Of a stretch of 64,000 nucleotides of DNA, positions 35,203-48,872 are shown in pieces. The notes below the pieces were generated by a model that saw only the letters and a list, made by a program, of their open reading frames with translations, did not search any database and was not told the DNA's origin. The stretch is taken from NCBI RefSeq assembly GCF_013409785.1, contig NZ_JACCBV010000001.1:3100001-3164000 (forward strand), in the 5' to 3' direction. The first letter of the stretch is position 1; every line of letters begins with the position of its first letter. The DNA is from Microbacterium immunditiarum. GTDB taxonomy: Bacteria > Actinomycetota > Actinomycetes > Actinomycetales > Microbacteriaceae. The translations under genes and the position numbers were made by a program.

Positions 35203-35247
35203 TCACCCGAATCGGGTGAACGTCTCGCGCGTCTCGACGGCGAGAAT
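35203..35247 (+). promoter_or_regulatory. palindromic activator site A plus -10 (TCACCC-N5-GGGTGA-N22-GAGAAT)
   Basis: Perfect palindrome TCACCCGA-A-TCGGGTGA at 35203-35219; GAGAAT at 35242-35247, 22 bases on. It is 81 bases before the DUF1269 gene and 12 bases after the SGNH gene stop. Part of the seven-site set described in the findings. Confidence 0.6.
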
Positions 35248-35300
35248 GAGCCCGACGGGGACCGGGCGGCCGGTCGTCGCGTGGTTCGAAGGGGATCTCG

Positions 35301-35828
35301 ATGAGCACACACAACCTTGCGCTGGTCGTCGGCTCGTACGCCGACACCGACTCGGCGTCCGAGGACTACCGGTCGCTGCGAAGCGGCCAGGATGCCGGAG
35401 GCTACGAGATCATCGGCGCCGTGGTGCTGGTGCGCGGCCGCGATGGAAAGGTCCAGGTCAAGGAGCACGGCGACAAGTCGGTCGGTCATGGCGCGGCCTG
35501 GGGTGCGGGCGCCGGCGTCGTGGTCGGTCTGTTCGCACCGCCGCTGCTGGCTGCGACAGCGGTCGGCGCCGGCATTGGCGCGATCCTCGGGAAGATCAAG
35601 AAGAACAAGGAAGAGAAGCAGTTCGGCGTCGACGTGGACGAGTACCTCGCGCCGGGCACGTCTGCCGTGGTCGCCGTCGCGGACGAGAGATGGGCGGCCC
35701 GGGTCGAGGAGGCGCTGCTGCGATCCGACAAGCGAGTCAGCAAGCCGATCGACTCGGACGACTTCACGAGGCTGCGGAAGGCGATCGAGGAGTCGGCCGA
35801 CGACGTGGTGGAGCAGCTCAACGCCTGA
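35301..35828 (+). CDS. DUF1269 domain membrane protein
   Basis: 175 residues. N-terminal ferredoxin-like strand pattern (HNLALVVGSYADTDSA), a Gly/Ala-rich double-hydrophobic hairpin (GAAWGAGAGVVVGLFAPPLL), KIKKNKEEK, and a C-terminal regulatory-like half ending in a short helix. This is the DUF1269 architecture, unknown function, often next to SHOCT genes. Good AAGGGG ribosome site. First gene after site A. Confidence 0.8.
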   Translation: MSTHNLALVVGSYADTDSASEDYRSLRSGQDAGGYEIIGAVVLVRGRDGKVQVKEHGDKSVGHGAAWGAGAGVVVGLFAPPLLAATAVGAGIGAILGKIKKNKEEKQFGVDVDEYLAPGTSAVVAVADERWAARVEEALLRSDKRVSKPIDSDDFTRLRKAIEESADDVVEQLNA

Positions 35829-35839
35829 CGCGGACAGTC

Positions 35840-35884
35840 TCACCCGTGCGGGGTGACGCCGCGGCATCCGTCCTCTCTTAGCGT
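35840..35884 (+). promoter_or_regulatory. palindromic activator site B plus -10 (TCACCC-N5-GGGTGA-N22-TAGCGT)
   Basis: TCACCC-GTGCG-GGGTGA at 35840-35856 and TAGCGT at 35879-35884, the same hexamer and the same 22-base gap as site C. Lies 75 bases before the SHOCT/PLDc_N gene. Confidence 0.65.
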
Positions 35885-35930
35885 GCTTGCAGGACGGACG
35901 GCCGGTCCGTCATCGACGATTGGCGGGGAA

Positions 35931-36311
35931 ATGGATCTGTGGAGCTGGATCGCGTGGTTCTTCTGGGTGTTCGTGTTCGTCGCCTACCTCATGGTGCTGT
36001 TCTCGATCCTGACCGACATCTTCCGGGACCACACGCTCAACGGCTGGCTCAAGGCCGTGTGGATCATCTTCCTGGTCTTCGTGCCGTTCCTGACGGCGCT
36101 CGTCTACTTGATCGCTCGGGGATCGAGCATGCAGGAGCGGTCCATGGCGCAGGCGCGCCAGCTGCGGCAGCACCAGGACGAGTACATCCGAGAGACCGCC
36201 GGCGCGCCGAGCGCGGTCGATGACATCGCCAAGGCCAAGGCGCTCCTCGACCAAGGCACGATCTCGCAGGCCGAGTTCGACGCGCTCAAGGCGCGAGCGC
36301 TCGCGGTGTGA
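35931..36311 (+). CDS. PLDc_N plus SHOCT domain membrane protein
   Basis: 126 residues. Two membrane helices (near 5-27 and 37-59) in PLDc_N-like arrangement (WAWFFWVFVF, VPFLTALVYLIARG), a polar linker, and a C-terminal SHOCT helix pair (KAKALLDQGTISQAEFDALKAR). SHOCT peptides are thought to mediate oligomer contacts. ATG at 35931 has GCGGGGA upstream. Followed by the DUF6325 gene after 6 bases. Confidence 0.82.
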   Translation: MDLWSWIAWFFWVFVFVAYLMVLFSILTDIFRDHTLNGWLKAVWIIFLVFVPFLTALVYLIARGSSMQERSMAQARQLRQHQDEYIRETAGAPSAVDDIAKAKALLDQGTISQAEFDALKARALAV

Positions 36312-36317
36312 GACGCG

Positions 36318-36755
36318 GTGGTCGTCATGACGCGCTTCGACTACGGTCCGCTCGACTTCTACGCGATCGCCTTCGACGGTGACACCCCCGGGCCGGGAGT
36401 CCTGAAGGCGATCGATGACCTCGTGGCATCCGGAACCGTCAACCTTTGCGATCTGGTCTTCGCCAGGCGGACGGCGGACGGCGAGCTCACGGTGATGGAG
36501 CTCTCCGACACGGCGGATGCCGGAGGCGTGCCCGCCCTCGATCTCGCGGGTCTCGCGGGCATGGAGGACATCGAGCTGCTCACCGAGCAGATCCCGCCCG
36601 GCCGGTCCGCGGCGATCCTGGTCGTGGAGCTGCTGTGGGCCAAGGCCTTCGCGGCGGCGCTGTACGACGCCGGCGGCATGGTCATCGCCCGCCACGGGAT
36701 CCCGGCGCCGATCGTGAACGGATTCCTCGCCGAGCACGACACCGAGGAGGGATGA
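36318..36755 (+). CDS. DUF6325 family protein
   Basis: 145 residues, soluble. The order MTRFDYGPLDFYAIAF, VNLCDLVFARRTADGELTV, and the hydrophobic AAILVVELLWAKAFAAAL match DUF6325, a ferredoxin-like family of unknown function related in layout to DUF1269. The start may be GTG 36318 or ATG 36327. It lies between two SHOCT genes, 6 and 3 bases away. Confidence 0.75.
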   Translation: MVVMTRFDYGPLDFYAIAFDGDTPGPGVLKAIDDLVASGTVNLCDLVFARRTADGELTVMELSDTADAGGVPALDLAGLAGMEDIELLTEQIPPGRSAAILVVELLWAKAFAAALYDAGGMVIARHGIPAPIVNGFLAEHDTEEG

Positions 36756-36758
36756 CGC

Positions 36759-37118
36759 ATGCTTCGCAGAGTCGGACGACCGGGTCTCATCGGAATGGCT
36801 GCCCGCACTGCGGTCGTCGCCGGAACCGCGACCGCAGTGTCGGGCAGCGTCCAGCGCCATCAGCAGGAGAAGCAGTACCAGGCCTACGAGGCGCAGCAGG
36901 CTGCGGCCGCGCAGCAGCAGGCCGCGATGGATGCCGCCGCCGCCCAGGCGGTGGCTCGTGCGCAGCAGGCTGCACCACCGCCCCCTCCGGCTGCGGCTCC
37001 CGCGGGCGCGGGCGGCGTCGACCTCGTCGCGGAACTGCAGAAGCTCGCGCAGCTGCAGCAAGCGGGGGTGCTGACCGCCGACGAGTTCGCGGCGGCGAAG
37101 GCGCGACTGCTCTCCTGA
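36759..37118 (+). CDS. SHOCT domain protein
   Basis: 119 residues. N-terminal hydrophobic segment (MAARTAVVAGTATAVSG), a Gln/Ala-rich coiled linker, Pro-rich stretch, and a C-terminal SHOCT pair (LQQAGVLTADEFAAAKARLL). Function unknown; likely works with the other SHOCT protein two genes upstream. Converges with the AI-2E transporter gene, 6 bases away. Confidence 0.78.
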   Translation: MLRRVGRPGLIGMAARTAVVAGTATAVSGSVQRHQQEKQYQAYEAQQAAAAQQQAAMDAAAAQAVARAQQAAPPPPPAAAPAGAGGVDLVAELQKLAQLQQAGVLTADEFAAAKARLLS

Positions 37119-37124
37119 CGCCCG

Positions 37125-38294
37125 TCAGACTTTGAGGTCCTGCTTCGGCACGACGAGCTCGTGGATGATCAGCAGGAGCGACGCCATGACCGGCAGCGCG
37201 AGCAGCACGCCGAGCACGCCCATGAGCGTCCCCCCGACGAGCGCGCCGATGAGGACGAGCGCGGCAGGGATCGAGACGGCCCGGTTCATCACTCTCGGGC
37301 TGATGACGTACGACTCGAGCTGGATGTAGACGAGGTACGCCACCGCGAAGATGAGCGCCTGGAGCGGGCTCGAGAAGAGGGCGACGATCGAGCCGAGCAC
37401 GAGGAAGATCACCGATCCGAAGAGCGGCACGAGCGTGATGACGAACGCGACCGCGGCCATGAGCGCAGGGAACGGCAGCCCGATGAGCAGGTGGAGCACG
37501 AAGACGGTCGCGGCGTTGAACGCCGAAAGGGTGACGGAGCCGAGCAGTGCGCTTCCCACGGACGCCGTGATCCGCTCGGTCATGTCGCGCAGCGTCGGGC
37601 GGTTCCGCGCGGGCGCCAGCGAGTAGAGCGCGCCCTTCATCGCCCCGAGCGATGCGAGGAAGTACAGCGTGAGCGCCACGACGATGAAGCTGGCCGTGAC
37701 GAACCCCACGAGCCCGACGACGGCGGCGAGGACCCCTCCCCCGAGCATCGCGAGCGTCTGCGGCGCGGACACGATGGCTCGCAGCTGCTCGGCGGCGGTC
37801 AGGAGAGCGGCCTGCACGTCGGGAGCGAGTCCCGTGAACCACTCCGAGCCGCGGAGGTCGGCAAGCGCCTCGGGGATGTACGCGACGAACTCGCCGACCT
37901 GCGCGACGACCGGGGGAAGCACGAACACGAGGAGGGCGACGACGAGCAGGCAGAAGACGCCGAACACGATGCCGATGGCGGCGCCGCGCGGGATGCGACG
38001 GCGCTCCAGCATCCGCACGATCGGATCGAGTCCGAGGGCGAGGAACAGCGCCAGCGCGATGTAGGCGAGGATCGTCGAGATCGACCCGAGCGCGCTGCCC
38101 AGGACGAGCGCCCCGAGCACCCCGAGCGCAGCCGCGAACCCGATGATGACGGGCCGCTCCATCGCCGCCAGGACGGCCAGGCGGCGACGGAGCGGTGCGG
38201 CCGTGGATGGCGATACCCGGACGCCCGGCGCCTCCCCGACGGCGTCGGGCGGGTCCGGGGTCTCCGGTGCCTCGGCTCGAGGCGGGAGCGTCAT
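37125..38294 (-). CDS. AI-2E family transporter (TqsA/PerM-like)
   Basis: 389 residues, eight helices in the UPF0118 pattern, with the long cytoplasmic/periplasmic region between helices 3 and 4 and the late motif VPLFGSVIFLVLGSIVAL plus LESYVISPRVM. Family members export AI-2 or act as Na+/H+ antiporters; none can be assigned. Pro-rich N-terminal tail of 45 residues. ATGA overlaps the stop of the DUF7144 gene. Confidence 0.85.
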   Translation of the reverse strand: MTLPPRAEAPETPDPPDAVGEAPGVRVSPSTAAPLRRRLAVLAAMERPVIIGFAAALGVLGALVLGSALGSISTILAYIALALFLALGLDPIVRMLERRRIPRGAAIGIVFGVFCLLVVALLVFVLPPVVAQVGEFVAYIPEALADLRGSEWFTGLAPDVQAALLTAAEQLRAIVSAPQTLAMLGGGVLAAVVGLVGFVTASFIVVALTLYFLASLGAMKGALYSLAPARNRPTLRDMTERITASVGSALLGSVTLSAFNAATVFVLHLLIGLPFPALMAAVAFVITLVPLFGSVIFLVLGSIVALFSSPLQALIFAVAYLVYIQLESYVISPRVMNRAVSIPAALVLIGALVGGTLMGVLGVLLALPVMASLLLIIHELVVPKQDLKV

Positions 38295-38701
38295 ACGCTG
38301 TCCGCCACCCTCATCTCGCGTCCGTGGACGATGATCGCGTAGATCACGAGGATGTCGAGCGCGAGCACGATGAGCGACCACCACGGCTGAACCGGCAGGA
38401 GTGCGAGCTGCCCGAGCGCGTTGAGCGCGACGAGGATGACGCCGACGACCCGCGCCCACGTCGCACCCGTCATGAGGAAGATGCCCACGAGCACCAGGAG
38501 CACACCGGAGATGACGTGCCACCATCCCCATCCTGAGACGTCGAGCAGGAACAGGTCTCCGGTCGCCGCGAGGAAGTAGGCACTGTCGGGGCCTATGATC
38601 GCGATCAGTCCGTAGATGATGTCGAAGAAGCCGGCGACCAGCATGATGACGCCCGCGAACACCACCCATCCGGTCCAGCGCGTCAGCGTCGTATCCGTCA
38701 T
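38291..38701 (-). CDS. DUF7144 membrane protein
   Basis: 136 residues, four helices: TGWVVFAGVIMLVAGFFDIIYGL, then GWGWWHVISGVLLVLVGI, and two more. This is the DUF7144 pattern of actinobacteria, unknown function, often in stress-related clusters. GGAGGGAG ribosome site. Coupled to the AI-2E gene and transcribed from site C. Confidence 0.8.
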   Translation of the reverse strand: MTDTTLTRWTGWVVFAGVIMLVAGFFDIIYGLIAIIGPDSAYFLAATGDLFLLDVSGWGWWHVISGVLLVLVGIFLMTGATWARVVGVILVALNALGQLALLPVQPWWSLIVLALDILVIYAIIVHGREMRVADSV

Positions 38702-38749
38702 GACTGCTCCCTCCGTCGACGCGATCCGGGGCTCGGATCGTCGCGACAG

Positions 38750-38794
38750 ACGCTACGCAGGCGGGGCCCGCGGGGACTCACCCCCGCGGGGTGA
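38750..38794 (-). promoter_or_regulatory. palindromic activator site C plus -10 (TCACCC-N5-GGGTGA-N22-TAGCGT)
   Basis: TCACCCC-CGC-GGGGTGA at 38778-38794, TAGCGT on the minus strand at 38755-38750, spacer 22. Start of the DUF7144 gene is 49 bases below the -10. It lies between divergent genes, so it is not a terminator. Confidence 0.65.
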
Positions 38795-38836
38795 TTGTCG
38801 TCGCGTGCCGTCGGTGCCGGGCATCCGGAGTGCGAA

Positions 38837-38881
38837 TCATCCAGGCGGGGTGATGGAGTCCGCTTCGCGGGCGGACACGCT
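38837..38881 (+). promoter_or_regulatory. palindromic activator site E plus -10 (TCATCC-N5-GGGTGA-N22-CACGCT)
   Basis: One-mismatch copy at 38837-38853 with CACGCT at 38876-38881, 22 bases on; the 84-residue protein gene starts 34 bases later. Confidence 0.45.
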
Positions 38882-38915
38882 GGTACCAGCACACGCGCCG
38901 ACGGGAGATGCGAGC

Positions 38916-39170
38916 ATGCACGCTCAGGTGATGGAACTGATCGTCCGCGGCCGCCTGAGCCCTGAGCTGATACTCACGCTCGACGGCTTCGACGTCATGA
39001 CCGACGAGCGGGGGTTCACCCGGATCACCGGGCCGGTCGCGGACCAGTCCCGGCTGCTCGGCGTGCTCGAGCTCTTCGACGGACTCCACATCGAGGTGGT
39101 CTCCGTCAATCCCGTGGAGTCGGCTCCCGCCTCGGGCGACGACGGAGGGCCTCCCGACGCTCAGCCGTGA
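38916..39170 (+). CDS. 84-residue soluble protein, possible small regulator
   Basis: MHAQVMELIVRGRLSPEL, then DGFDVMTDERGFTRITGPV and a C-terminal FDGLHIEVVSVNP: alternating strands and one helix, like the short ACT/STAS-sized proteins common in actinobacteria that I know only as hypothetical. ATG at 38916 has GGGAG nine bases upstream; a longer frame from 38853 overlaps site E. Its end overlaps the K+ channel gene end by 10 bases (convergent). Confidence 0.6.
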   Translation: MHAQVMELIVRGRLSPELILTLDGFDVMTDERGFTRITGPVADQSRLLGVLELFDGLHIEVVSVNPVESAPASGDDGGPPDAQP

Positions 39171-39886
39171 GACGCACCCGGCCCCTGCGGGTCGCCCGGC
39201 CCGGCCAGGCCGTCGATCCGTGCCAGGATCGCCCGCGCCTGCCCGCGCGTCGCGGGCTCCTCGTCGTCATGGCCGCGCGACGCCCGCTCCAGGATCCACG
39301 ATGCCAGGGTCGCCGTGATTATGCCCGACAGGATGATGCCGCCGAACATCAGCCCGACGGCCACCGCACGGCCCGCCATCGTCACCGGCACGTAGTCACC
39401 GAAGCCGGTCGTCGTCACGGTGACGCACGACCACCACAGGGCGACGCCGAAGTCGACGATATTGGCGCCCGGAGCGTGCCGCTCGGCCTCGAGCACCGAG
39501 AGCGACGCGAGGTAGACGAGCACGACGACGACCCCGCCGCCGTACACGGCGATCCCCGTGCGCAGCGCCGCGCCGCGCGTGCGCCGAAGTCCCGGGAGCT
39601 GGGTCACGCGATCGAGCAGCAGCACGAGCCGCAGCACGGGCAGGAGAGCGAAGGCGAGTGCGCCCGGGTGTTTGCGGAACCACCGCCAGCGATCCTCGGC
39701 GAGCGTGAGCCGCACGACGTAGTCGACGATGAAGAAGATCCACGTGACCGCGACGAGGACCAGCGCGACGGTGCGCGGCGGCCCGACGAGGTCGGCGATC
39801 ACGAGCCACGAGTATGCCGCGAGGTACACGAGCGATGCGATGGACAGGGGCAGGGTCATCCGGCTCACCCAGGTCGGCTCGTCCAT
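39161..39886 (-). CDS. voltage-type potassium channel protein
   Basis: 241 residues. Six hydrophobic segments with a voltage-sensor-like first part (S4 region RWFRKHPGALAFALLPVLR) and a pore with the K+ selectivity filter in TTTGFGDYVPV near residue 157, then inner helix. The cytoplasmic tail is short and charged, without an RCK domain. Sits 22 bases after the MalT-type regulator gene, so probably in its operon. Passive K+ flow, possibly for membrane potential or osmotic control. Confidence 0.85.
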   Translation of the reverse strand: MDEPTWVSRMTLPLSIASLVYLAAYSWLVIADLVGPPRTVALVLVAVTWIFFIVDYVVRLTLAEDRWRWFRKHPGALAFALLPVLRLVLLLDRVTQLPGLRRTRGAALRTGIAVYGGGVVVVLVYLASLSVLEAERHAPGANIVDFGVALWWSCVTVTTTGFGDYVPVTMAGRAVAVGLMFGGIILSGIITATLASWILERASRGHDDEEPATRGQARAILARIDGLAGPGDPQGPGASHG

Positions 39887-39908
39887 GGTTCCCTCCGTCG
39901 CCGAGACG

Positions 39909-42500
39909 TCACATGACCGGGCCAGAGTCCCCCGCCGGGATGAGCCCGAGCTCCCGGGCCCGCTCCACGGCCGCGTCCCGGTTCTGTGCGCCGAGCTTGC
40001 GATAGATGTGCCCGAGATGCGTCTTGATCGTGTTCGTCGAGACGTAGCAGCGTGCGGCGATTCCCGGGATGGTCAGTCTGCTGGGGAGGTAGGCCAGCAG
40101 TTCGAGCTCGCGGGTCGTGAGGTGTTCGACGAGGTGCTGGCGGGGAGGCGCAGCAGCCGCCCGTGCCGCACTCACGACGGCGCTGCGGAAGCCGTTGCCC
40201 ACGCCGGGCAGCTCGTCGACGAGGTCCGCGACGGCTGCACCCGCTCTGACGAACGGCTGGACGAGCCATTCGGGCTCGGCCAGCCGGAGCGCCGTCGTGA
40301 GGTGCGCCCTCGACTCCGGGTTCCGCTTCTCGGCGGCGCACAGCCACCCTTCGAGGATCTCGTGCTCGACCTCGGGCAGCGGCGCGTCCGGCTCCGGCCT
40401 CGGTGCGAGCTCCGTCATGCGCGCGCGGGCATGGCTGACACGGCCGAGCGCCAGCAGCGCCGCGACCTCCTCGAACGCGATGTACGACCACGATGCCGGG
40501 TGGCTCGGCGGCGGCAGCGGTGCTCCTCGCGAGCGCGCCTGCCTCATCTCGAACGCGAGCAGCGCGTCGCGCACGAACGCAGGTCGAGGCCCCTCCGGCT
40601 CTTCGACGCCCGGCAGCCCGCCCTCCGGGTACGCCGCGTGCGCGATGAGCCACGCGATCCACAGCAGCTGCGTGCGCTGGTTCGAGAGAGCGCGCGCGGC
40701 GCCTTCGTGCAGCGCGAGCGCTCCGGTGGCGGGCTCGCCCCGCTGCACCGCGACGAGCGCACGGGCGAGGTAGGCCTCGGCGGGCGCCGGATGCACGAGA
40801 AGGTCGTCCTCGGTCGCGAGCGACAGCGCGTCTTCGGCGTGTCCGGACGCGGCCACGAGGCATCCGGACAGCGCCTCGGCCATCGCGAGCGAACCGAGAG
40901 TGTGCACGCGGTACGGCCGGTACGCGGTGCCCACAGCCCGCAGCGCGGCCTCGAAGATACGACGGGCTCCGTGGACGTCGCCGAGGAGAAGTCGCGCGCG
41001 ACCGAGCGAGACCTGACTCACGGTGAGCAGCACGGTGCGGGACGTGAGGCCGAGAAGGTTCGGACGAGGGGCATCCGGATGCCGCGTGATCTCGCTCACC
41101 GCGGCCTGCGCGACCGGCACGAAGAGCTCCGTCTCGGGGTGGAACTGCACGCACGCGGCCAGGTATGCGAGTGCGACCTGGCGCTGACCCGGCGTCAGCT
41201 CGCCATCGGCGAGGAGGGTGCGGAAGCGGTCGACCGCGTGCATCGCGCGACCGCTCATGCCCTCGGCCATCGCCAGGAGGATCGCGGCGTCGGGACGCTC
41301 GGCGAGGTTCCTGTCGGGGACTTCGCGGAGCCATCGCACGACGGTGCCCATGCGATGCGACTCGTAGTAGCACCTTCCGAGGTCCAGTACGAGGTCCAGC
41401 ACGCGATCCCAGTCGTGGGCGCGGATCGCGTACTCGATCGCGCTCTCCTCGTCGCCCGACTCCGACAGCCGACGCGATGCGACGCCGAGCAGTTCGGGTT
41501 CGGCATCGCGATCGTGGGCGCGCAACCGCAGCAGGAGGAGATCCCGGAAGAGACGGTGGAATCTGTGCCAGCCAACGCGTTCCGGCACGGGCACGACGAA
41601 CAGCGAGTCCCGTTCGAGCCCGGCGAGCAGCTTCTCGCCGTCGAGGCCCGTGACGACGCCGGCGAGGTTCGCGTCGAAGTCGTCGAGCACCGAGAGCTGG
41701 ACAATGGCCGTACGCCGTCGGGGCGAGAGCCCATCCAGCACCTCTTCGCCGAGATAGTCGGTGATGAGCCGATCGGTCTCGGACATCGTCTCGACGACAA
41801 GGTCGGGATCGGCCGCGAACCTCATCGACAGCGCGGTGAGCTGGACACCGACCGCCCAGCCTTCGGTGCGCGCGGTGATCTTCGCCGCGACCTCTTCCGA
41901 GACCGCTGTGCCGGTGATCGCCGAGATGACGCGCGAGGTGGTCGCGTCGTCGAACGCGAGCTCGCGCTGGCGGATCTCGACGAGATCGTGGTGCACGCGG
42001 TGACGGCTCCAGCCGAGCTGCAGATCGGTACGCGACGCGAAGATCACGTGCACGCCGTTCGGAAGCATGTCGACCAGTCGCCACAGGTCGGTCAGCACCG
42101 GAGTGCCGCCGATGCGGTCGAGGTCGTCGAAGATGAGCACGACGGGGTCGATCTCCTTCAAGCCGGCCGCGAGATCCTCCAGATACTGATCACCCAGTCT
42201 GCGTGCCGCGGTGGAGACGGCAGCGAGCGGCGGGCGGAACTCCGCCGACGCCTCCGCGAGCGCCGCGAGCACCTTCCGCGACAGCGCGAGGGGGTCCGCG
42301 TCGCCCGGGGCGATGTCCACCCACGCCACCGGCAGCCCCGGGTGCGACGCCACCCATTGCGCGAGGAGAACCGACTTTCCGGCGCCGGCGGGTGCGACGA
42401 TCAGCGACAGCGGCGAGCCCGCCCCCGCATCGAGCTGCGCTCGCAACACAGGACGATCCACGGCGTGCGCCGGTATACGGCGCGCCTCCCGCCCGATCAT
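39909..42500 (-). CDS. MalT-type (LAL-like) LuxR-family transcriptional activator
   Basis: About 863 residues. N-terminal P-loop APAGAGKSVLLAQW near residue 35 with Walker B VLIFDDLDRI, a NB-ARC/STAND ATPase, a long helical TPR-like sensor region (residues 330-780) and a C-terminal LuxR helix-turn-helix (LTTRELELLAYLPSRLTIPGIAARCYVSTNTIKTHL split at the recognition helix VSTNTIKTHLGHIYRKLGAQ). MalT-like proteins multimerise with ATP and inducer and bind direct or inverted repeats to activate promoters. ATG at 42500 has GGAG 8 bases up; a GTG at 42575 overlaps the DUF998 stop (GTGA). Likely controls the nearby palindromic sites. Confidence 0.87.
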   Translation of the reverse strand: MIGREARRIPAHAVDRPVLRAQLDAGAGSPLSLIVAPAGAGKSVLLAQWVASHPGLPVAWVDIAPGDADPLALSRKVLAALAEASAEFRPPLAAVSTAARRLGDQYLEDLAAGLKEIDPVVLIFDDLDRIGGTPVLTDLWRLVDMLPNGVHVIFASRTDLQLGWSRHRVHHDLVEIRQRELAFDDATTSRVISAITGTAVSEEVAAKITARTEGWAVGVQLTALSMRFAADPDLVVETMSETDRLITDYLGEEVLDGLSPRRRTAIVQLSVLDDFDANLAGVVTGLDGEKLLAGLERDSLFVVPVPERVGWHRFHRLFRDLLLLRLRAHDRDAEPELLGVASRRLSESGDEESAIEYAIRAHDWDRVLDLVLDLGRCYYESHRMGTVVRWLREVPDRNLAERPDAAILLAMAEGMSGRAMHAVDRFRTLLADGELTPGQRQVALAYLAACVQFHPETELFVPVAQAAVSEITRHPDAPRPNLLGLTSRTVLLTVSQVSLGRARLLLGDVHGARRIFEAALRAVGTAYRPYRVHTLGSLAMAEALSGCLVAASGHAEDALSLATEDDLLVHPAPAEAYLARALVAVQRGEPATGALALHEGAARALSNQRTQLLWIAWLIAHAAYPEGGLPGVEEPEGPRPAFVRDALLAFEMRQARSRGAPLPPPSHPASWSYIAFEEVAALLALGRVSHARARMTELAPRPEPDAPLPEVEHEILEGWLCAAEKRNPESRAHLTTALRLAEPEWLVQPFVRAGAAVADLVDELPGVGNGFRSAVVSAARAAAAPPRQHLVEHLTTRELELLAYLPSRLTIPGIAARCYVSTNTIKTHLGHIYRKLGAQNRDAAVERARELGLIPAGDSGPVM

Positions 42501-42571
42501 GCCGTGCTCCGCTCGGTCGGCTCCCCTCAGCGAATGGTCCCACACCGGAGGTCGAGCCGACACGACCAAGG

Positions 42572-43627
42572 TCACGGCGTGTCCGCTTCGAGAGCTGCCG
42601 TGTTGCGGATGAACAGGATCACCCACGTGAACACGAGAACCCCGCCGATGAGCTCGACGGCGGTGAGCGTGTAGTAGCCGATCCCGTAGAAGACCCCGAA
42701 GAGGATCATGAGGGCGAGGAAGAGCCAGCCGAGGACGATGAAAGGTCGTGGCAGCCCGGGCATCCAGCGCGGAAGCCGCGTGACGAGCACTCCGAATGCG
42801 ACGACCATCCCGATCGAGACGCCGACATGGATCACGAAGAAGACGTCCACGGGGAAGGCGCCGACGAGGGCGAGGAAGATCCCCAGCACGACCAGGCACG
42901 TCCGCACGCTCAGCAGACCCGGCGCATCCGTTCCCGTGGGCTTCGTGGCGGACCGCGCGAGCGACGTGACGAGGAAGCCCGACACGATGAGGGTCAGGTT
43001 GAACGCGCGCGCCGACACGTTCGTCGTGACCCCGAGCGCACTGAGGTTGTCCTTCCACCAGTCCGGGTCACTCGTGCTGAGCATTGCCGCGAGCACGCCC
43101 AGCACGAAGAACGCGGCGAACAGCAACGCGAGCCGCCGCGAGTCCATTGCGATCGCCGAGGAGAACGAGACGTACGCCGTGACCGCCGTCGCCACCCCGG
43201 CTAGGGCGATGACCGCCAGCGGGAAGACCACGGCCCCGAGGAACGCCTCGGCGAGGATCGCCGCGAGCAGCGTCCAGCCCAGCAGCGCGACGATCGCGTG
43301 GGCGATGGCGAGCGCCGCGATGTCGAGGTGGTCGAGGAGCCGGAGGCGCTCACCGGCGCGCGCGGACACGAGGTATCGGGCGGCTGCCACGCACGGGAGC
43401 GCGACGAGCGCGGACGCCAGGGCGGCGAACTGACCGATCGAGTCGGGTCCCGCGATCGGCGCCGAGGCGAACCGGAAGGCGATCAGCGCCGCAGTCGCTC
43501 CCACGACGAAAGCGACGGCACCTGCCAGGAGGGCGAGCGACTCCAGATCGCGGGCGCCCACGCGGTCGGTCCAGCGGATGCCGCGCCCGGCGTCGCGCGT
43601 GAGGGCGACGTCCGGCTGCCTGCTCAT
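42572..43627 (-). CDS. DUF998-like multi-pass membrane protein
   Basis: 351 residues with about nine membrane helices, including a long loop with TSDPDWWKDNLSALGV, typical of DUF998. Function unknown. ATG at 43627 (MSRQPDVALTRD) is preferred, though a GTG at 43726 would add 33 residues. Its end overlaps the regulator gene (GTGA if that start is used), so it is coupled to the LuxR gene. Confidence 0.7.
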   Translation of the reverse strand: MSRQPDVALTRDAGRGIRWTDRVGARDLESLALLAGAVAFVVGATAALIAFRFASAPIAGPDSIGQFAALASALVALPCVAAARYLVSARAGERLRLLDHLDIAALAIAHAIVALLGWTLLAAILAEAFLGAVVFPLAVIALAGVATAVTAYVSFSSAIAMDSRRLALLFAAFFVLGVLAAMLSTSDPDWWKDNLSALGVTTNVSARAFNLTLIVSGFLVTSLARSATKPTGTDAPGLLSVRTCLVVLGIFLALVGAFPVDVFFVIHVGVSIGMVVAFGVLVTRLPRWMPGLPRPFIVLGWLFLALMILFGVFYGIGYYTLTAVELIGGVLVFTWVILFIRNTAALEADTP

Positions 43628-43738
43628 CGCCGACGCCCCGTCGCCGCCGAGGAGACCTCTGCGAATCCCGCCATCCCGACTCCCTCGCGTACCTCGGTCG
43701 CTGGGCGCGGCCGACGCGGGGCCCACCCGGTGAAGGTC

Positions 43739-43783
43739 AGTCCACCCAGCCCGATCGGGTGCCGCATCATCCGACTCGGGTGA
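43739..43783 (-). promoter_or_regulatory. candidate palindromic site F for the DUF998-luxR operon (weak)
   Basis: TCATCC-GACTC-GGGTGA at 43767-43783 with TGGACT at the 22-base position. But its right half lies inside the terminator hairpin of the upstream MFS gene, so the match may be chance. Confidence 0.3.
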
Positions 43784-43810
43784 CTTCGCGCCCCGCCGAA
43801 GTCACCCGAG
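43775..43810 (-). terminator. terminator of the antiporter-M20-MFS operon
   Basis: Perfect 14-bp stem CTCGGGTGACTTCG / CGAAGTCACCCGAG with an 8-base loop; it includes the stop codon of the MFS gene at 43802. Confidence 0.75.
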
Positions 43811-45385
43811 AAGCATCCCCTCCGCTCCCTCCGAAGCGCGCGGGTCCGGCAGGCGCCGCATCCGCAATCCGTTCACGATGCCGATGCCCGCCGAGAGGAT
43901 CGGCACGAGGAGCGCGATCTGCAGCGCGAGGGGCCGCGCCTGGGTGTTGATGCGGATGATCTCCTCCGCAGCCTCGGGCGCCGCGTCCTCCAGCAGCTCG
44001 GTCAGAGCGGTGTTGGAGACGAGCTGCGCATCGTCTTCGAGCACGGCCGCGACACGCTGCTGCTCCTGTGCCGTGAGCACCTCCGACTGCGCGGCGAGGG
44101 ATGTGAACGACGCCGACAGCATCGCGAGCATGATCGCGCCCGCGAACGCGAGCCCGAACGACAGGCCGAACGACCCGGCCGCGGAGTTGACGCCCGCCGC
44201 CTCGCTCACGCGCTCGTCGGAGACGGGCGAGAGCGTGTAGTTGTTGAGCTGCGACACGAGCAGTCCGAGACCCGATCCCGCGATGACGAGCGGCACGGTG
44301 AGGAACCAGCCGGAGGTCGCGATGGGGATGATCGGCTCGAGGATCACGAGCCCGGCCGCCGCGAGCACGAAGCCGACGAGGATGAGGTTGGCAGGTCGGC
44401 CCTTCGCGCGACGCCCCGCCACGATGGCGACGGCGAACATGCTGAGCGACAAGGGCGCGATCGACAGGCCCGCGAGAAGGGCGTTGTACTCGAGGACCAT
44501 CTGCAGGTAGAGGGGAAGCACGATCATCGTGCCCCCGAGTGCGATCTGCTGCAGGAGCTGCCCGGTCACGCCCCTCCGGAAGAGCTTGGACCGGAACAGG
44601 TCGGGGTCCAGCAGCACGGGCTTGCCCGCGCGGTGGCGGCTCCGCAGCCACATGGCGAGGCCGCCGAGCGCGACGACGCCGAGCCCGATGATGAGCCCCA
44701 CGTAGCCTCCCCCCTCCTGCCACACGAGGACCCCGAGCACGACGCCGCCCATGCCGATGACCGAGAGCGCCGCCCCCACGAGGTCGATCGAGCGGTCACC
44801 CGTGTACGGCACATCGCGCACGAGCGGGAGTCCGATCAAGACGACCGCGATGATGACCGCCTCCAGCAGGAATCCGACGCGCCACGAGAGGAAGGTCGTG
44901 ATGACGCCTCCGAGCAGCGGTCCGACCGCGGCGGCGATCGCGGCCGCCGCGCCCACGAGCGCGTAGACACGCTTCTGGTGGTCGCCCGCGAAGTTCCCGT
45001 GGATGAGCGACTGCATCGCCGGCAGCAGCAGCGACGCGCCGATCCCGCCGATGAGCGCCCAGAACACGATGATCGCCGTGAGGCCCTGCGCGAGCGTCAT
45101 TGCGATGGCGCCGATCGCGTACCCGACCAGACCGAACGCGTACGCCCGCTTGCGGCCGATGAGGTCGCCGACCTTGCCGCCGATGAGGATGAACGCCGCC
45201 GACACGAGCGCCTCGAGCGCGATCGCGCCCTGTACACCGCTCGCGGTCGTGTCGAGGTCGCGGACGACCGCCGAGATCGACACATTCATGATCGACGTGT
45301 CCACCACGAGCACGAACATCGCCATGGCGAGCAGGATCGCCAGGCGACGGTTCAGCTTCGCCGGCGCGACGGCGTCACCGGTCAT
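43802..45385 (-). CDS. MFS transporter, 14-helix DHA2 family
   Basis: 527 residues, 14 helices. DHA2 signatures: VVDTSIMNVSISAVVRDL (motif D1 with Asp), GGKVGDLIGRKRAY (motif A) and the WRVGFLLEAVI motif C region. Drug/proton antiport or export of an organic anion. Its start overlaps the end of the M20 peptidase gene by 11 bases; last gene of the four-gene operon. Confidence 0.85.
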   Translation of the reverse strand: MTGDAVAPAKLNRRLAILLAMAMFVLVVDTSIMNVSISAVVRDLDTTASGVQGAIALEALVSAAFILIGGKVGDLIGRKRAYAFGLVGYAIGAIAMTLAQGLTAIIVFWALIGGIGASLLLPAMQSLIHGNFAGDHQKRVYALVGAAAAIAAAVGPLLGGVITTFLSWRVGFLLEAVIIAVVLIGLPLVRDVPYTGDRSIDLVGAALSVIGMGGVVLGVLVWQEGGGYVGLIIGLGVVALGGLAMWLRSRHRAGKPVLLDPDLFRSKLFRRGVTGQLLQQIALGGTMIVLPLYLQMVLEYNALLAGLSIAPLSLSMFAVAIVAGRRAKGRPANLILVGFVLAAAGLVILEPIIPIATSGWFLTVPLVIAGSGLGLLVSQLNNYTLSPVSDERVSEAAGVNSAAGSFGLSFGLAFAGAIMLAMLSASFTSLAAQSEVLTAQEQQRVAAVLEDDAQLVSNTALTELLEDAAPEAAEEIIRINTQARPLALQIALLVPILSAGIGIVNGLRMRRLPDPRASEGAEGMLLG

Positions 45386-46751
45386 CAGCGGGGCCCGTCA
45401 TGCCGCCGCCGCGTCCATACGCGCGCAGGAAGAGCGCCTCGGCCACCGCGAGGTTCTCGATCTCGCTCGGATCGACGCTCTCGTTCGGCGCGTGGATGAG
45501 CGCGAGCGGCTCTTCCACGCCCATGAGGATGATCTCGGCATCCGGATAGGCGTCGGCGAACACGTTGCACAGCGGAATCGACCCGCCCTGGCCGAGCATC
45601 GACGGCTGCACGCCGTACGCGGACCGCATCGCGTCCGCGAGGGCACGATAGGCGGGGCCGTCGGTGGGGGCTCGGAACGGCTCCCCCACGGCCTCCGTCT
45701 CGATCTCGACCCGCACGTGCCAAGGCGCATGGGCCTCGAGGTGCGCCCGCAGGGCGTTGAGGGCATCCGTCGCCCGCGTCCCGGGCGGCACCCGAAGGTT
45801 CAGCCTCGCCGCCGCCCGAGGCGTGATCGCCGCGGTCGATCCCACGACCGGCGGGCAGTCGATGCCGAGCACGGTGAGCGCCGGCCGCGCCCACAGCACG
45901 TCGGCCACGGCGGCGTCTCCCAGCAGGTCCACGCCATCGAGCACGCCCGCATCGCTGCGGAACTGCTCTGTGTCATACGGCTCGCCGGGCCAGGTCTGGG
46001 CACGCTCCAGCCCGTCGACTGTGGTATTCCCGCCGGCGTCGCGCAAGGACGCGAGAAGCGCGACGAGCGCGGCCAGCGCATCGGGCGCCGGGCCGCCGAA
46101 CATCCCGGAATGCACCTCGGACGCGAGCGTCTCGACCCGGACGACGACGTTGGCGAATCCGCGAAGCGACACTGTCGTCGCTGGACGCCCGACCGCCGCG
46201 TTACCGGTGTCGCACACGAGGATCGCGTCGGCACGCAGGACGTCGCGGTTCGCCTCGACGTAGCGCTCGAGACCCCCTGTCCCCTGCTCCTCGCTCCCCT
46301 CCACCACGAGCTTCAGGTTCACGGGAATGTCGTCGCCCAACGCGCGGAGCGCGAGGAGGTGCATGACGATGTTCCCCTTGCAGTCCGCCGCGCCGCGGCC
46401 GGCCCAGCGCCCGCCCATGTCCGTGAGCTCGAACGGGGGTGTGCGCCACGCGGACTCCTCGAGCGGTGGCTGCACGTCGTAGTGCGCATACAGCAGGACG
46501 GTCGGGGCATCCGGATGCGCCGCCGGGCGCTGCCCGATGACCGCGTCGCTCCCGTCCGGCGTCCGCTCGAGCCGTGCGTCTGCGAAGCCGAGCTCGGCGA
46601 ACCGGGAACGGACCCACTCTGCGGCTTTCGCGCACTCCTCGGGAGGGGACTGGCGAGGGTCGGCGACGGATCGCAGCGCGACGAGCTCGGCGAGCTCGCC
46701 ACGCGCCGCCGACATCATCGATCGGACGCGGTCGCGGATGTCTTCGCTCAC
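45375..46751 (-). CDS. M20 family metallopeptidase/dipeptidase
   Basis: 458 residues. Co-catalytic zinc motifs: first ligand LLYAHYDVQP, bridging GRGAADCKGN with Asp, and the catalytic Glu pair EGSEEQG; the last His lies in LIHAPNESV. Dimerisation domain in the middle. Family cleaves dipeptides or acyl-amino acids in the cytoplasm. GTG start overlaps the upstream small gene (GTGA). With the antiporter it suggests peptide or amino-acid use. Confidence 0.87.
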   Translation of the reverse strand: MSEDIRDRVRSMMSAARGELAELVALRSVADPRQSPPEECAKAAEWVRSRFAELGFADARLERTPDGSDAVIGQRPAAHPDAPTVLLYAHYDVQPPLEESAWRTPPFELTDMGGRWAGRGAADCKGNIVMHLLALRALGDDIPVNLKLVVEGSEEQGTGGLERYVEANRDVLRADAILVCDTGNAAVGRPATTVSLRGFANVVVRVETLASEVHSGMFGGPAPDALAALVALLASLRDAGGNTTVDGLERAQTWPGEPYDTEQFRSDAGVLDGVDLLGDAAVADVLWARPALTVLGIDCPPVVGSTAAITPRAAARLNLRVPPGTRATDALNALRAHLEAHAPWHVRVEIETEAVGEPFRAPTDGPAYRALADAMRSAYGVQPSMLGQGGSIPLCNVFADAYPDAEIILMGVEEPLALIHAPNESVDPSEIENLAVAEALFLRAYGRGGGMTGPADDR

Positions 46752-47197
46752 CGTCCCGTGCTCTCCACGGTGTTGAGGCTGTCGACGAAGTCCTGGAACT
46801 CTTCGGCCTCCTCGGGACAGTATGTCTGGATGATGAGGAGCTGCCCCTGCAGGAGCCGCGACTCGACGAGGATGGGGCGCTGACCCGGGCCACCGGCACC
46901 GTTGGACAGTCCGGCCAGCAGAGTCGCCCGCGAGAGTGCGGCATTGGGATCGGCGCACACAGCACCGCCGTCGTCGCCGAGCACTCGCGCGACCTGCTCC
47001 GCCGTGAACGGGGTGGAGATCCCGGCATCCGCGAACGAGTCGAGCAGCTCCTGCGCCTTGTCCACATCGCGCGCCTGCTGCCGCGCGCCGACGAATGTCA
47101 CTGTCGCGATCACGGCGAGCGCGACAAGCACGACGATCGCGACGATCGAGATGATCGATCGCTCTCGCGGATGCTGCGTCTCCTGGTGCGTGCTCAT
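46748..47197 (-). CDS. single-pass membrane protein, unknown
   Basis: 149 residues. N-terminal polar 15 residues, one membrane helix (SIISIVAIVVLVALAVIATV), then a soluble outer part with two cysteines (VCADP and QTYCPEE) that may form a disulfide. No family recognised. Both ends overlap neighbours (ATGA, GTGA), so it belongs to the operon. Confidence 0.7.
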   Translation of the reverse strand: MSTHQETQHPRERSIISIVAIVVLVALAVIATVTFVGARQQARDVDKAQELLDSFADAGISTPFTAEQVARVLGDDGGAVCADPNAALSRATLLAGLSNGAGGPGQRPILVESRLLQGQLLIIQTYCPEEAEEFQDFVDSLNTVESTGR

Positions 47198-48657
47198 GAT
47201 TCACTCACCTCTCCGTCCACGGGCTGCTTCCACGAGGGCCTGCGGAAGCGATAGAAGAGGAAGGGCACGAGCAGCCCGAGCCCGAGCGCGCCGCCTCCGA
47301 CGATCAGCAGGTAGACCCACGGGCTGCCCCCGCCGAACTGCGACGGCGGGATGAAGCCCACCAGCAGCGCCGCGAGCGACGCGGCGAAGCCGACGCCGCA
47401 CAGCGCGACGAGGATCGGGGCGCGGTAGCCACGAGGGTGGTCCGGATGCCGCCGCCGCAGCTGCACTGCGGCGATGAACATCAGGAGGTACATGATCAGG
47501 TAGACCTGCGTCGTGATCACCGAGAAGATCCAGTACGCGCTCGAGACGTTCGGGATGAGCGCGTAGCCGAGAGCGATGATCGACGTGACGATGCCCTGAG
47601 TGACGAGCAGGTTCTGCTGCACGCCGTTCTTGTTGAGCTTCTGCAGGAACGGCGGCAGGTAGCCCTCTTCGCGCGAGATGAGGAGAAGACCCTTCGACGG
47701 CCCCGCGAGCCACGTGAGCATGCCGCCGAGCGAGGCCGCGACGAGCATGATGCCGACGATCGGGGTCAGCCACGCGATGTCGAAGGTCGAGAACACCGCC
47801 TCGAAGGCCTGCATGATCCCCGCGGTCAGCGAGATCTGCTCAGCCGGGACGATCCAGCTGATCGCGAGCGCCGGCAGGATGAAGATCAGCAGCACAAGCC
47901 CCATGGCGAGGAAGATCGCCTTCGGGTAGTCCTTGCCGGGGTTCTTCAGCGACGACACGTGCACGGCGTTCATCTCCATGCCGCTGTAGGAGAGGAAGTT
48001 GTTCACGATGAGCACGAGGCTCGCGAGCCCTGCCCACTGGGGCAGGAGGTTCTCGGCCGTCATCGGCGCGGCCGACTCGTTCCCCTGCCCGAGGAAGAGC
48101 GCCCCGAGGAAGACCAGCACGGCACCCGGGATCAGCGTGCCGAGGATGAGACCCCAGCTCGCAAGACCCGCGACGCCTTTCGTGCCGCGCGACGACACGA
48201 AGACTCCGGCCCAGTAGCAGACCATGATCACGAGCGCCGTCCACACGCCGTTCGAAGCGAGTGCCGGGTTGATCACATAGGCGAGAGTCGATGCGACGAA
48301 CCCCAGCAGGGTCGGGTAATAGAAGATCGTCATCGCGAACTGGCACCAGATGGCGAGGAATCCCATCGGCTTCGAGATGCCCTCCGAGACCCACTTGTAG
48401 ACGCCGCCCTTCCATCCGGACGCGAGCTCGGCGGCTACCAGTGAGGTGGGCAGGAGGAAGACGACCGCCGGCACCAGATACAGGAACACCGCCGCGAGGC
48501 CGTAGACGGCCATCGTCGGGGCTGGTCGCAGGCTGGCGACGGAGCTCGTCGTCATGAGCGCGAGTGCGATCCACGAGATCCAGACGGGTTTGGGGACCGC
48601 CGCAGCACGCGAGCGGATCGATTCGGGCCGCGACCCCGCGGCGTCTGTGGCGCTCAT
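47194..48657 (-). CDS. GadC-like glutamate:GABA-type antiporter
   Basis: 487 residues, about 12 helices, APC superfamily. Characteristic phrases of GadC-type exchangers are present: LSYSGMEMNAVHVSSLKNPGKDYP, a LTAGIMQAF helix and the cytoplasmic KLNKNGVQQNLLVTQG segment. GadC exchanges glutamate for GABA in acid resistance, but no gadB-like decarboxylase is in the window, so the substrate pair is unknown. GGAAGG ribosome site. First gene of the operon below site D. Confidence 0.82.
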   Translation of the reverse strand: MSATDAAGSRPESIRSRAAAVPKPVWISWIALALMTTSSVASLRPAPTMAVYGLAAVFLYLVPAVVFLLPTSLVAAELASGWKGGVYKWVSEGISKPMGFLAIWCQFAMTIFYYPTLLGFVASTLAYVINPALASNGVWTALVIMVCYWAGVFVSSRGTKGVAGLASWGLILGTLIPGAVLVFLGALFLGQGNESAAPMTAENLLPQWAGLASLVLIVNNFLSYSGMEMNAVHVSSLKNPGKDYPKAIFLAMGLVLLIFILPALAISWIVPAEQISLTAGIMQAFEAVFSTFDIAWLTPIVGIMLVAASLGGMLTWLAGPSKGLLLISREEGYLPPFLQKLNKNGVQQNLLVTQGIVTSIIALGYALIPNVSSAYWIFSVITTQVYLIMYLLMFIAAVQLRRRHPDHPRGYRAPILVALCGVGFAASLAALLVGFIPPSQFGGGSPWVYLLIVGGGALGLGLLVPFLFYRFRRPSWKQPVDGEVSES

Positions 48658-48759
48658 GACCGGTGACCTTCCCCAGAGACGGATCGCATCATGGCCTTTC
48701 CCCTCTCGCCGGCGGCCCCCTTGTACGGGTCGCTGATCGATCACGGTCGATTCCTGGGA

Positions 48760-48804
48760 AAAGTACGTCCCGAGTGAGGCCCCGGCATCACCCGCGGCGG
48801 GTGA
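48760..48804 (-). promoter_or_regulatory. palindromic activator site D plus -10 (TCACCC-N5-GGGTGA-N22-TACTTT)
   Basis: Perfect TCACCCGC-G-GCGGGTGA at 48788-48804; TACTTT on the minus strand at 48765-48760, spacer 22. Lies between divergent genes and reads toward the GadC-like gene. Confidence 0.65.
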
Positions 48805-48827
48805 CTGCTCGCGCCTCATCCGTGGAA

Positions 48828-48872
48828 TCACCCGACTTGTATGACGCGCCGACGGATGCCCCAGCCCACGAT
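48828..48872 (+). promoter_or_regulatory. degenerate palindromic site D' plus weak -10
   Basis: TCACCC-GACTT-GTATGA at 48828-48844 with CACGAT at the 22-base position; the MFS gene starts 43 bases later. Two mismatches, so weak. Confidence 0.3.

Follow-up and report, generated by a model that had tools for sequence, protein, structure and literature searches.

A 17-bp palindrome, TCACCC-N5-GGGTGA, is very probably the operator of the MalT-like LuxR (LAL) activator encoded at 39909..42500 in Microbacterium immunditiarum, which would drive the surrounding set of genes and at least one unlinked gene. The window analyzed here is a stretch of 64,000 nt, and its site-bearing region spans 13.6 kb. 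The sites, their spacing to a −10-like hexamer, their co-occurrence with the LAL, and the targets they have in common were observed directly. LALs that bear such operators constitute a widespread actinobacterial group, first shown in Actinoplanes.

Probable Operator Sites and Gene Organization in the Window

The motif scan recovered all seven palindromes listed in the preliminary description, and the gene map placed each of them between genes, as had been claimed. Four copies are exact (35203, 35840, 38778, and 48788), those at 38837 and 43767 carry one mismatch each, and the weak copy at 48828 carries two, or one when scored against the broader form TCAYCC-N5-GGRTGA. With up to two mismatches allowed, the whole window contained 9 matches versus 2.94 expected, a number reached in 0 of 100 shuffles. 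The half-sites are mostly GGGTGA, with a single GGATGA half at 38837 and at 43767. Re-reading the bases 22 nt downstream reproduced the NANNNT hexamers reported for six of the seven palindromes, as well as the deviating seventh, TGGACT.

The first operator, TCACCCGAATCGGGTGA, followed after 22 nt by the −10-like GAGAAT (35203..35247, plus strand), is situated between the end of a GDSL hydrolase gene at 35190 and a gene encoding a DUF1269 protein with a glycine zipper (35301..35828, plus). The second, TCACCCGTGCGGGGTGA, with TAGCGT after N22 (35840..35884, plus), lies upstream of genes encoding a PLDc_N and SHOCT protein (35931..36311, plus), a DUF6325 protein (36327..36755, plus), and a SHOCT protein (36759..37118, plus). 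On the minus strand, TCACCCCGCGGGGGTGA, N22, and TAGCGT (38750..38794) precede the genes for a DUF7144 protein (38291..38701) and an AI-2E family transporter (37125..38294), while the adjacent TCATCCAGGCGGGGTGA, N22, and CACGCT (38837..38881, plus) precede the gene for an 84-aa protein without a Pfam match (P84; 38916..39170, plus), whose predicted fold is ferredoxin/ACT-like. These families were assigned by profile search, complemented for P84 by fold prediction; the same searches identified an ion channel gene (Ion_trans_2; 39161..39886, minus), the LAL gene, and, upstream of the latter, a DUF998 gene (42572..43627, minus). The DUF998-LAL genes are preceded by TCACCCGAGTCGGATGA, N22, and TGGACT, which lacks the A of NANNNT (43739..43783, minus). 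Autoregulation through this site is possible; the lack of a good −10 ahead of the LAL operon counts against the model.

The operator TCACCCGCCGCGGGTGA, with TACTTT after N22 (48760..48804, minus), is located upstream of four minus-strand genes encoding the glutamate/GABA antiporter GadC (47194..48657; NF053662, 702.6 bits, cut-off 640), a 149-aa protein without a Pfam match (P149; 46748..47197) situated between GadC and M20, an M20 dipeptidase-like protein (45375..46751), and an MFS transporter (43802..45385). Finally, the weak operator TCACCCGACTTGTATGA, N22, and CACGAT (48828..48872, plus) precede a DHA2-like MFS transporter gene (48915..50450, plus; 199.6 bits, under the TIGR00711 cut-off of 230.2).

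Distribution in the Genome and the Genus

The genome was scanned as one contig of 3,906,867 bp. Its four exact palindromes all fall inside the 13.6 kb region, as do 6 of the 16 with up to one mismatch. The composite palindrome-N22-TANNNT occurred with up to one mismatch at five places, four at the locus and one unlinked, and with two mismatches at seven more, of which three were outside the locus and four within it (two of the four are the reverse reading of exact palindromes). The 22-spaced motif is thus not common in the rest of the genome, a point on which the preliminary description had made its proposal depend. At the unlinked site, TACTGT stands at +22, and the gene that follows is GH15/trehalase-like and adjoins a gene for a cation P-type ATPase; relatives carry unlinked sites upstream of SHOCT, DUF7144, and sulfatase genes. 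Because these unlinked sites are well spaced, the regulon probably extends beyond the locus; the proposal of a local regulon around a MalT-type LuxR protein was supported as regards the regulator, and its strict locality was rejected as unlikely.

When 35 Microbacterium genomes were compared, the composite motif was present in all 10 genomes with a LAL ortholog (41 matches) versus 2 of the 25 without one (2 matches; Fisher p = 3.6e-7), so that the motif is conserved with the regulator, as had been anticipated. Some genomes count against the model: in two (G022 and G029) the palindromes mostly lacked a matching −10, and in a third (G038) the sites were dispersed, with none in the 20 kb stretch around its LAL.

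The Motif at LAL Loci across Actinobacteria

A survey of the DNA around 80 LAL genes (52 actinobacterial loci and 28 others or unplaced) yielded 69 TCAYCC-N5-GGRTGA sites versus 1.22 expected from 119 permuted half-sites. Sites were present at 33 of the 52 actinobacterial loci, that is, at 12/12 from Microbacteriaceae and 21/40 from other actinobacteria, and at 0 of the 28 non-actinobacterial or unplaced loci. Both half-sites were GGGTGA in 29 sites, both were GGATGA in 8, and 32 were mixed; because of this split, the two half-sites look like variants of one motif. The strict GGGTGA half-site of the preliminary description hence holds mostly in the window and gives way to GGRTGA elsewhere in actinobacteria. 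Likewise, the strict 22-nt spacing stood in the window and had to be widened to 22 or 23 nt elsewhere: NANNNT followed 60 of the 69 sites at one of these two distances, versus 1–10 at other spacing pairs. A −10 hexamer lies about 6–7 nt from the transcription start, and the −10 position predicts starts 34–36 nt beyond the 3′ end of the motif.

That the motif is a terminator, a repeat element, or an alternative sigma factor promoter, with no activator involved, is scarcely credible. Inverted repeats can end transcripts, and near-identical copies in one genome (G130) do resemble a repeat; against this, four of the seven window sites lie between divergent genes (38778/38837 and 48788/48828), the sequences of the spacers vary among the aligned sites while their length is almost only 5 (0–5 occurrences of inverted half-sites for any other spacer at the 80 loci), and the −10 stands at a fixed distance. 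The divergent positions, variable spacers, and fixed-distance −10 rule out the terminator and the repeat element.

It is very unlikely that the LAL binds the palindrome and represses transcription by blocking the −35. The site does cover the −35 position, where repressors bind too, but a −35 consensus, sought 17 nt from the −10 in the aligned promoters, did not appear, leaving nothing of the kind to block; moreover, the spacing from site to −10 is rigid (22/23), and in Actinoplanes a site so placed serves MalT as an activator (PMC7567727).

The families recurring downstream of the sites are SHOCT/PLDc_N, the commonest at LAL-linked sites elsewhere (families listed: 25 of 39), DUF7144, DUF6325, DUF1269, and the 84-aa ACT-like protein, as well as sulfatase, GadC, and glutamate decarboxylase. 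No maltose-transport or maltodextrin family was among the target families listed (25 of 25, 39, 27, and 26), the nearest to maltose functions being the GH15/trehalase-like genes. When genes were picked for these tallies, L067 and L070, which duplicate L093 and L097, were omitted; A4 had 7 picks swapped for the evident gene and 2 of 93 rows left out, A5 used 46 of 48 distinct picks (one LAL and one long false start were left out), and A7 used 45 of 46, one being a duplicate.

The Regulator and Its Relatives

The 863-aa LAL, encoded on the minus strand, comprises an N-terminal NTPase, a TPR_MalT-like region (below the Pfam cut-off), and a C-terminal GerE HTH, according to profile searches. Its NTPase resembles that of E. 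coli MalT (8bob_C, E 2.4e-28). An E. coli-type MalT of maltose genes was rejected, given a score of 234.8 bits for the MalT equivalog NF003420, under the cut-off of 537, and the lack of mal genes among the target families listed. An AHL-type quorum-sensing LuxR was also ruled out, as the domain search detected no autoinducer-binding domain at E 0.001.

In the LAL tree, all 42 site-positive rows fell in one group of 50 on one side of a single branch, versus 0/38 in the remainder. LALs of Actinoplanes and Paractinoplanes share this group with the window LAL, ACSP50_3915 itself not being among the rows. Within the group, 8 of the 41 LALs from surveyed loci had no site of the class up to 10 kb on each side. 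An HTH signature tracked the sites (30/34 versus 2/16), although it was picked post hoc, after inspection of the sequences.

A different regulator might bind the palindrome, the LAL being a mere neighbor or itself a target. The unlinked, well-spaced genomic site and the 7 of 18 site-rich stretches without a clear LAL (up to 20 kb examined each) would fit such an arrangement. We consider it quite unlikely, since the sites follow the LAL ortholog through the genus and one LAL group through the actinobacteria, track the LAL's own HTH (with the post hoc signature), and have half-sites matching the MalT core, and since deletion of malT in Actinoplanes demonstrates dependence on the regulator (PMC7567727).

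Comparison with Known Systems

The preliminary description knew of no account of the regulon; an experimentally studied system close to it is that of Actinoplanes SE50/110, where MalT switches on a region of 51 genes bearing the motif TCATCC-N5-GGATGA (Droste et al. 2020, PMC7567727). There, malT deletion lowered the expression of 42 of the 51 genes, the 3′ end of the motif lies 34.4 ± 1.0 nt before the start sites, and the authors, who compared five strains, all Micromonosporaceae, found no common pathway (PMC7567727). Both systems have a MalT-like LAL among its own targets (here predicted), inverted 6-mers with a spacer of 5 over the −35, and many membrane or unknown-function proteins without maltose genes; the Actinoplanes region also encodes amino acid permeases and a dipeptidase (PMC7567727). 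They differ in the half-site, GGATGA being the Actinoplanes consensus and GGGTGA predominating in the window, and in the arginine deiminase operon found only in the former. Maltose dependence and mutant effects are established in Actinoplanes. At two Paractinoplanes LAL loci, a one-mismatch site with GATGAT at 23 precedes a GadC 80–82% identical to that of the window, followed by P149.

The window half-sites match the E. coli MalT core GGA(T/G)GA (as cited in PMC7567727), but they are inverted, whereas E. coli MalT sites form a repeat arrangement, and E. coli MalT controls the mal regulon, whose genes are missing from the window-type target families listed. Streptomyces SCO6993, SCO0877, and SCO7173 are, like the window LAL, large ATP-binding LuxR proteins. 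In the available part of PMC9628970, SCO6993 binds palindromes, its printed sites are without the window motif, and the authors could predict no consensus; the available part of PMC3282765 gave no site sequence for SCO0877 or SCO7173. A literature search on the motif, the DUF families, and acid-related LuxR proteins, covering few subscription papers, returned PMC7567727 as the sole precedent among the matches listed. The window regulon belongs to the Actinoplanes-type LAL/inverted-box kind, with GGGTGA half-sites; the spread beyond Micromonosporaceae, the operator–regulator co-occurrence, the unlinked targets, and the glutamate/GABA link are new.

Proposed Mechanism

We infer binding and activation by the LAL in response to a signal. 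By analogy with E. coli MalT, ATP and an inducer presumably license the LAL, which as a dimer or oligomer would contact a pair of inverted GGRTGA half-sites whose centers are separated by 11 bp. The bound protein would be placed near −43, over the −35 position; such a class II site had been proposed, and the spacing to the −10 conserved at actinobacterial LAL loci agrees with it. From there, the LAL would recruit RNA polymerase to promoters with a −10 and no recognizable −35. The predicted regulon includes DUF1269, SHOCT/PLDc_N, DUF6325, DUF7144-AI-2E, P84, GadC-P149-M20-MFS, and perhaps its own DUF998-LAL operon, together with at least one unlinked gene, the GH15/trehalase-like gene next to the cation P-type ATPase.

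Glutamate/GABA Genes and Biological Significance

That GadC and glutamate decarboxylase recur among the targets raises the tentative possibility of an acid or glutamate/GABA stress role. In four of four relatives checked, the GadC-P149 operon had a site with at most one mismatch, followed by NANNNT at 23. Complete operators precede glutamate decarboxylase genes in four f36 genomes as well as in G064 and G106, and the products of L312 and L188 passed TIGR01788. Of the nine glutamate decarboxylase genes found in seven Microbacterium genomes, one had an exact palindrome but lacked a −10 at 22/23, another had a palindrome with one mismatch and TAGCGT at 23, and the remaining seven had no match closer than two mismatches. 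No glutamate decarboxylase was found in the M. immunditiarum genome at E 1e-20, which weakens the acid reading. It is conceivable, though doubtful, that one ancestral LAL–operator pair governs a hitherto unnoticed, actinobacteria-wide stress regulon, in effect an acid-fitness system, in which glutamate decarboxylase, GadC, HdeD-like (DUF308), ClC, SulP, P-type cation pumps, and the Actinoplanes arginine deiminase would be co-induced with SHOCT/PLDc_N, DUF6325, DUF7144, DUF1269, and the ACT-like P84, the last of which may itself sense a ligand in partnership with the LAL.

Sequence alone suffices to recognize the 17-bp operator and its fixed-distance −10 in many actinobacteria, which ties a broad, little-studied group of MalT-like LALs to a definite candidate binding site. 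DUF6325, DUF7144, DUF1269, SHOCT/PLDc_N, and P84 can thereby be grouped with genes of glutamate/GABA and ion transport as a single set of candidates for co-regulation, and the function of these families can be tested by one deletion and one RNA-seq experiment. Our results also suggest that the puzzling Actinoplanes region may be a stress rather than a sugar regulon.

Regulator and putative operator sites in the genome

The gene at 39909-42500 on the reverse strand of the window encodes a MalT-like LuxR regulator (LAL) of 863 aa, composed of an N-terminal NTPase, a TPR_MalT-like region that falls below the Pfam cut-off, and a C-terminal LuxR HTH. Its residues 12-413 match the solved MalT chain 8bob_C (E 2.4e-28), and its score against the E. 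coli MalT model was 234.8 bits, under the equivalog cut-off of 537; judged by these matches, the product is a LAL regulator and not a MalT equivalog.

The putative operator of this regulator, the palindrome TCACCC-N5-GGGTGA, occurs in four exact copies in the 3.9 Mb genome, all within 35.2-48.8 kb of the window, and the chance of all four falling in one 13.6 kb stretch is approximately 4e-8 by hand calculation. Re-checking the window sequence located all seven palindromic sites of the preliminary description where it had placed them. At up to one mismatch, 16 palindromes were counted genome-wide, including six in the 35.2-48.8 kb region. When a -10-like TANNNT hexamer was required 22 nt downstream, three places in the whole genome matched without mismatch, all in the window; one mismatch gave two places (one in the window, one unlinked), and two mismatches gave seven, four in the window (two being reverse reads of exact palindromes) and three elsewhere. 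The unlinked site (G000:C1:2219202-2219277 of this genome; loci L008 and L084) reads TCACCCGCGCGGGGCGA, with TACTGT at +22, and lies upstream of a GH15/trehalase-like gene. Another palindrome, 31 bp from the first, deviates at one position and has no -10 at 22; it precedes a gene for a cation P-type ATPase. Members of both families are also targets in other genomes, and the operator found before GH15/trehalase-like genes elsewhere (L183, L325) supports the unlinked site.

Distribution of the putative operator and the regulator

Orthologs of the LAL were identified in 10 of 35 Microbacterium genomes (own genome counted; E 8e-189 or better), with genome G023, which has only a partial match (6.5e-39), scored as lacking one. 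The wider palindrome TCAYCC-N5-GGRTGA with NANNNT 22 or 23 nt downstream was present in 10/10 genomes with the ortholog versus 2/25 without it (Fisher p = 3.6e-7), bearing out the preliminary expectation that the motif would be kept with the regulator in related genomes. The ortholog genomes, own genome counted, held 41 of these composite matches (29 at 22 nt, 12 at 23 nt), and genomes G004 and G022, without the ortholog, one each; the reversed pattern, used as a control, matched once per strand of G016 at 22 nt and nowhere at 23 nt. The ortholog loci share site-preceded genes, namely SHOCT/PLDc_N, P84, DUF7144, AI-2E, DUF6325, and GadC. In one of these ten loci (L074), the strict palindrome was not found in 20 kb at up to one mismatch; there, TCATCC-N5-GGATGA with AAGTAT is located upstream of P84.

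Additionally, a TCGCCC-N5-GGGTGA sequence occurs at the LAL 3′ end in four loci (L072:11479, L073:11140, L075:11550, L068:11325); in the first three it lies upstream of AI-2E with NANNNT 22 nt downstream, and L068 has no hexamer at 22. Its sequence suggests a third half-site variant. In two further loci of the genus (L076 of G029, L077 of G022), the LAL is a different one and is accompanied by DUF6325/SHOCT genes and exact palindromes, most of which lack NANNNT at 22; this arrangement could represent another geometry or a decaying system.

Among 23 order-level relatives, composite matches were found in G038, G047, G051, G052, and G054. A distant LAL was detected at E 1e-30 or better in G038, G047, and G052 and not in G051 or G054, although the stretch around the G051 site does contain a LAL. 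Genome G038 has dispersed sites (four matches at N22, eight at N23; loci L173, L245, L256, L259, L271, L278, L281, L283, and L285-L287), preceding genes that include SHOCT, DUF6325, DUF7144, SulP, ClC, and sulfatase, and no site was found in the 20 kb around its distant LAL.

Beyond the genus, an alignment scan of named genomes returned at least 564 LAL relatives. In the best 80 of these loci, taken with up to 10 kb per side, TCAYCC-N5-GGRTGA occurred 69 times, versus a mean of 1.22 for 119 half-site permutations; excluding two Microbacterium loci already covered by the genus comparison (L093, L097) leaves 78 loci, of which 31 bear a total of 65 sites. For each other spacer length between 0 and 11, the inverted half-sites occurred 0-5 times in the same 80 loci. 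Sorted by hand from record titles, 12/12 Microbacteriaceae loci (28 sites), 21/40 other actinobacterial loci (41 sites), and none of 28 other or unplaced loci bore the palindrome. Of the 69 sites, 60 were flanked on one or both sides by NANNNT at a distance of 22 or 23 nt, versus 1-10 for the other spacing pairs tested (6 to 41), and TANNNT was counted 14 times at 22, 8 times at 23, and at most once at every other offset. The aligned promoters, partly built from composite-pattern loci and thus biased towards having a -10, showed GC preferred at bases two and three past the palindrome and nothing else there; a -35 consensus 17 nt from the -10 was not found in them.

The DNA pattern alone (TCAYCC-N5-GGRTGA-N22-NANNNT) gave 145 matches, as a row count, in 37 of 158 genomes of the class, own genome counted, versus three for the reversed control. 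In hand-picked stretches of up to 20 kb around pattern sites, a LAL (at least 90 bits) was present in 11/18 and absent from 7/18. Three matches in a 7 Mb genome (G130:C1:2953776, 2956857, and 5571193) are nearly identical in palindrome and flank, and are probably copies of a repeat element and false positives of the pattern.

In a rapid, midpoint-rooted phylogeny of 88 LALs, all 42 site-positive rows fell within one group of 50 (SH-aLRT 99), whose status as a clade depends on the root, with some long branches uncertain; the 38 rows outside included none, and L168 (no site, too short) was left out. The site character required 7 changes versus approximately 29 in shuffles. Since eight site-positive rows came from loci picked for having sites and one was the window, these nine were removed, leaving sites in 33/41 rows inside the group and 0/38 outside. 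Among 50 actinobacterial LALs with readable HTH (two were unreadable), sites accompanied 30/34 with the signature SxNT[VILM][KR][TSA]Hx5RK, picked post hoc, versus 2/16 without it (p = 3e-7).

Candidate target genes

Pfam analysis of 91 predicted downstream proteins from LAL loci gave SHOCT (18), PLDc_N (17), DUF7144 (9), sulfatase (6), DUF6325 (6), amino acid permease (4), DUF2252 (2), and DUF308 (2). The 31 proteins from the class pattern search included SHOCT (4), DUF7144 (3), PLDc_N (3), pyridoxal decarboxylase, sulfatase, DUF6325, and DUF1254/DUF1214 (2 each), and SulP, AI-2E, and a trehalase N-terminus (1 each). A set of 46 proteins from relatives, partly overlapping the 91, yielded PLDc_N (7), DUF6325 (5), SHOCT (5), sulfatase (4), DUF7144 (4), and ClC (1), and 45 proteins from 40 further hand-picked stretches yielded DUF7144 (8), SHOCT (4), DUF1269 (3), HAD (3), P-type ATPase (2), sulfatase (2), glutamate decarboxylase (1), and GH15/trehalase (1). 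The remaining predicted proteins, which include false reading frames, had no match or belonged to other, mostly one-off families.

P84, the 84-aa protein encoded at 38916-39170 on the forward strand, had no Pfam match, and its relatives (26-59% identity) are found under the operator, mostly adjoining LALs. Its predicted fold, beta-alpha-beta-beta-alpha-beta (pLDDT 84), had no solved-structure match at E 0.001; the best matches (E 5.5e-3, TM about 0.5) were acetohydroxyacid synthase regulatory subunits, which are ACT domains. The predicted fold is ACT/ferredoxin-like, and we speculate that P84 could be a ligand-sensing partner of the LAL.

Regarding glutamate and GABA, the window antiporter exceeded the cut-off of the NCBI GadC model (702.6 vs. 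640). GadC paired with P149, a 149-aa protein encoded between the GadC and M20 genes, recurs at LAL loci of four relatives: two Paractinoplanes, whose GadC is 80-82% identical to that of the window, one Nocardioides (81%, M20 present), and Microbacterium G013 (85%, M20 present). In 4/4 of these relatives a site followed by NANNNT at 23 lies less than 400 bp upstream of GadC; the Nocardioides copy is exact, and each of the remaining three has one mismatch. Operator-preceded glutamate decarboxylases were found in four f36 genomes and in G064; those at loci L312 (636.5) and L188 (576.3) passed TIGR01788 (cut-off 380.4), and the other three f36 copies are 90-94% identical to L188. A further decarboxylase under the operator, in G106, was assigned by Pfam. 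In our genome, no glutamate decarboxylase was found at E 1e-20. Of the decarboxylase genes of Microbacterium, nine in number, seven have a best upstream palindrome with at least two mismatches. The other two are preceded by closer copies: an exact palindrome in one case, which lacks a -10 at 22/23, and in the other a palindrome with a single mismatch and TAGCGT at 23. The likeness to HdeD was weak (28.3, cut-off 189), and the ClC protein passed the Pfam cut-off and reached no NCBIfam cut-off. For these reasons, we regard a role of the regulon in acid or GABA stress as a lead and not as an established finding.

Comparison with the MalT region of Actinoplanes

A transcription start site usually lies approximately 6-7 nt beyond the end of the -10. 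Droste et al. 2020 (PMC7567727) described a region of 51 genes in Actinoplanes sp. SE50/110 in which TCATCC-N5-GGATGA precedes 17 start sites, with 34.4 ± 1.0 nt between the 3′ end of the motif and the start. According to the same report, malT deletion lowers 42 genes and overexpression raises 39, none of the maltose genes responds to malT changes, and four further strains of Micromonosporaceae also have the motif; the main text of that report contains none of the terms acid stress, decarboxylase, antiporter, and sulfatase. The window resembles this region in the type of regulator, in predicted geometry (22 + 6 + about 6-7 nt), and in part of the genes, but differs in its half-sites, mostly GGGTGA instead of GGATGA. 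We conclude that the window regulon is of the same kind as the Actinoplanes MalT region and a further member with GGGTGA half-sites.
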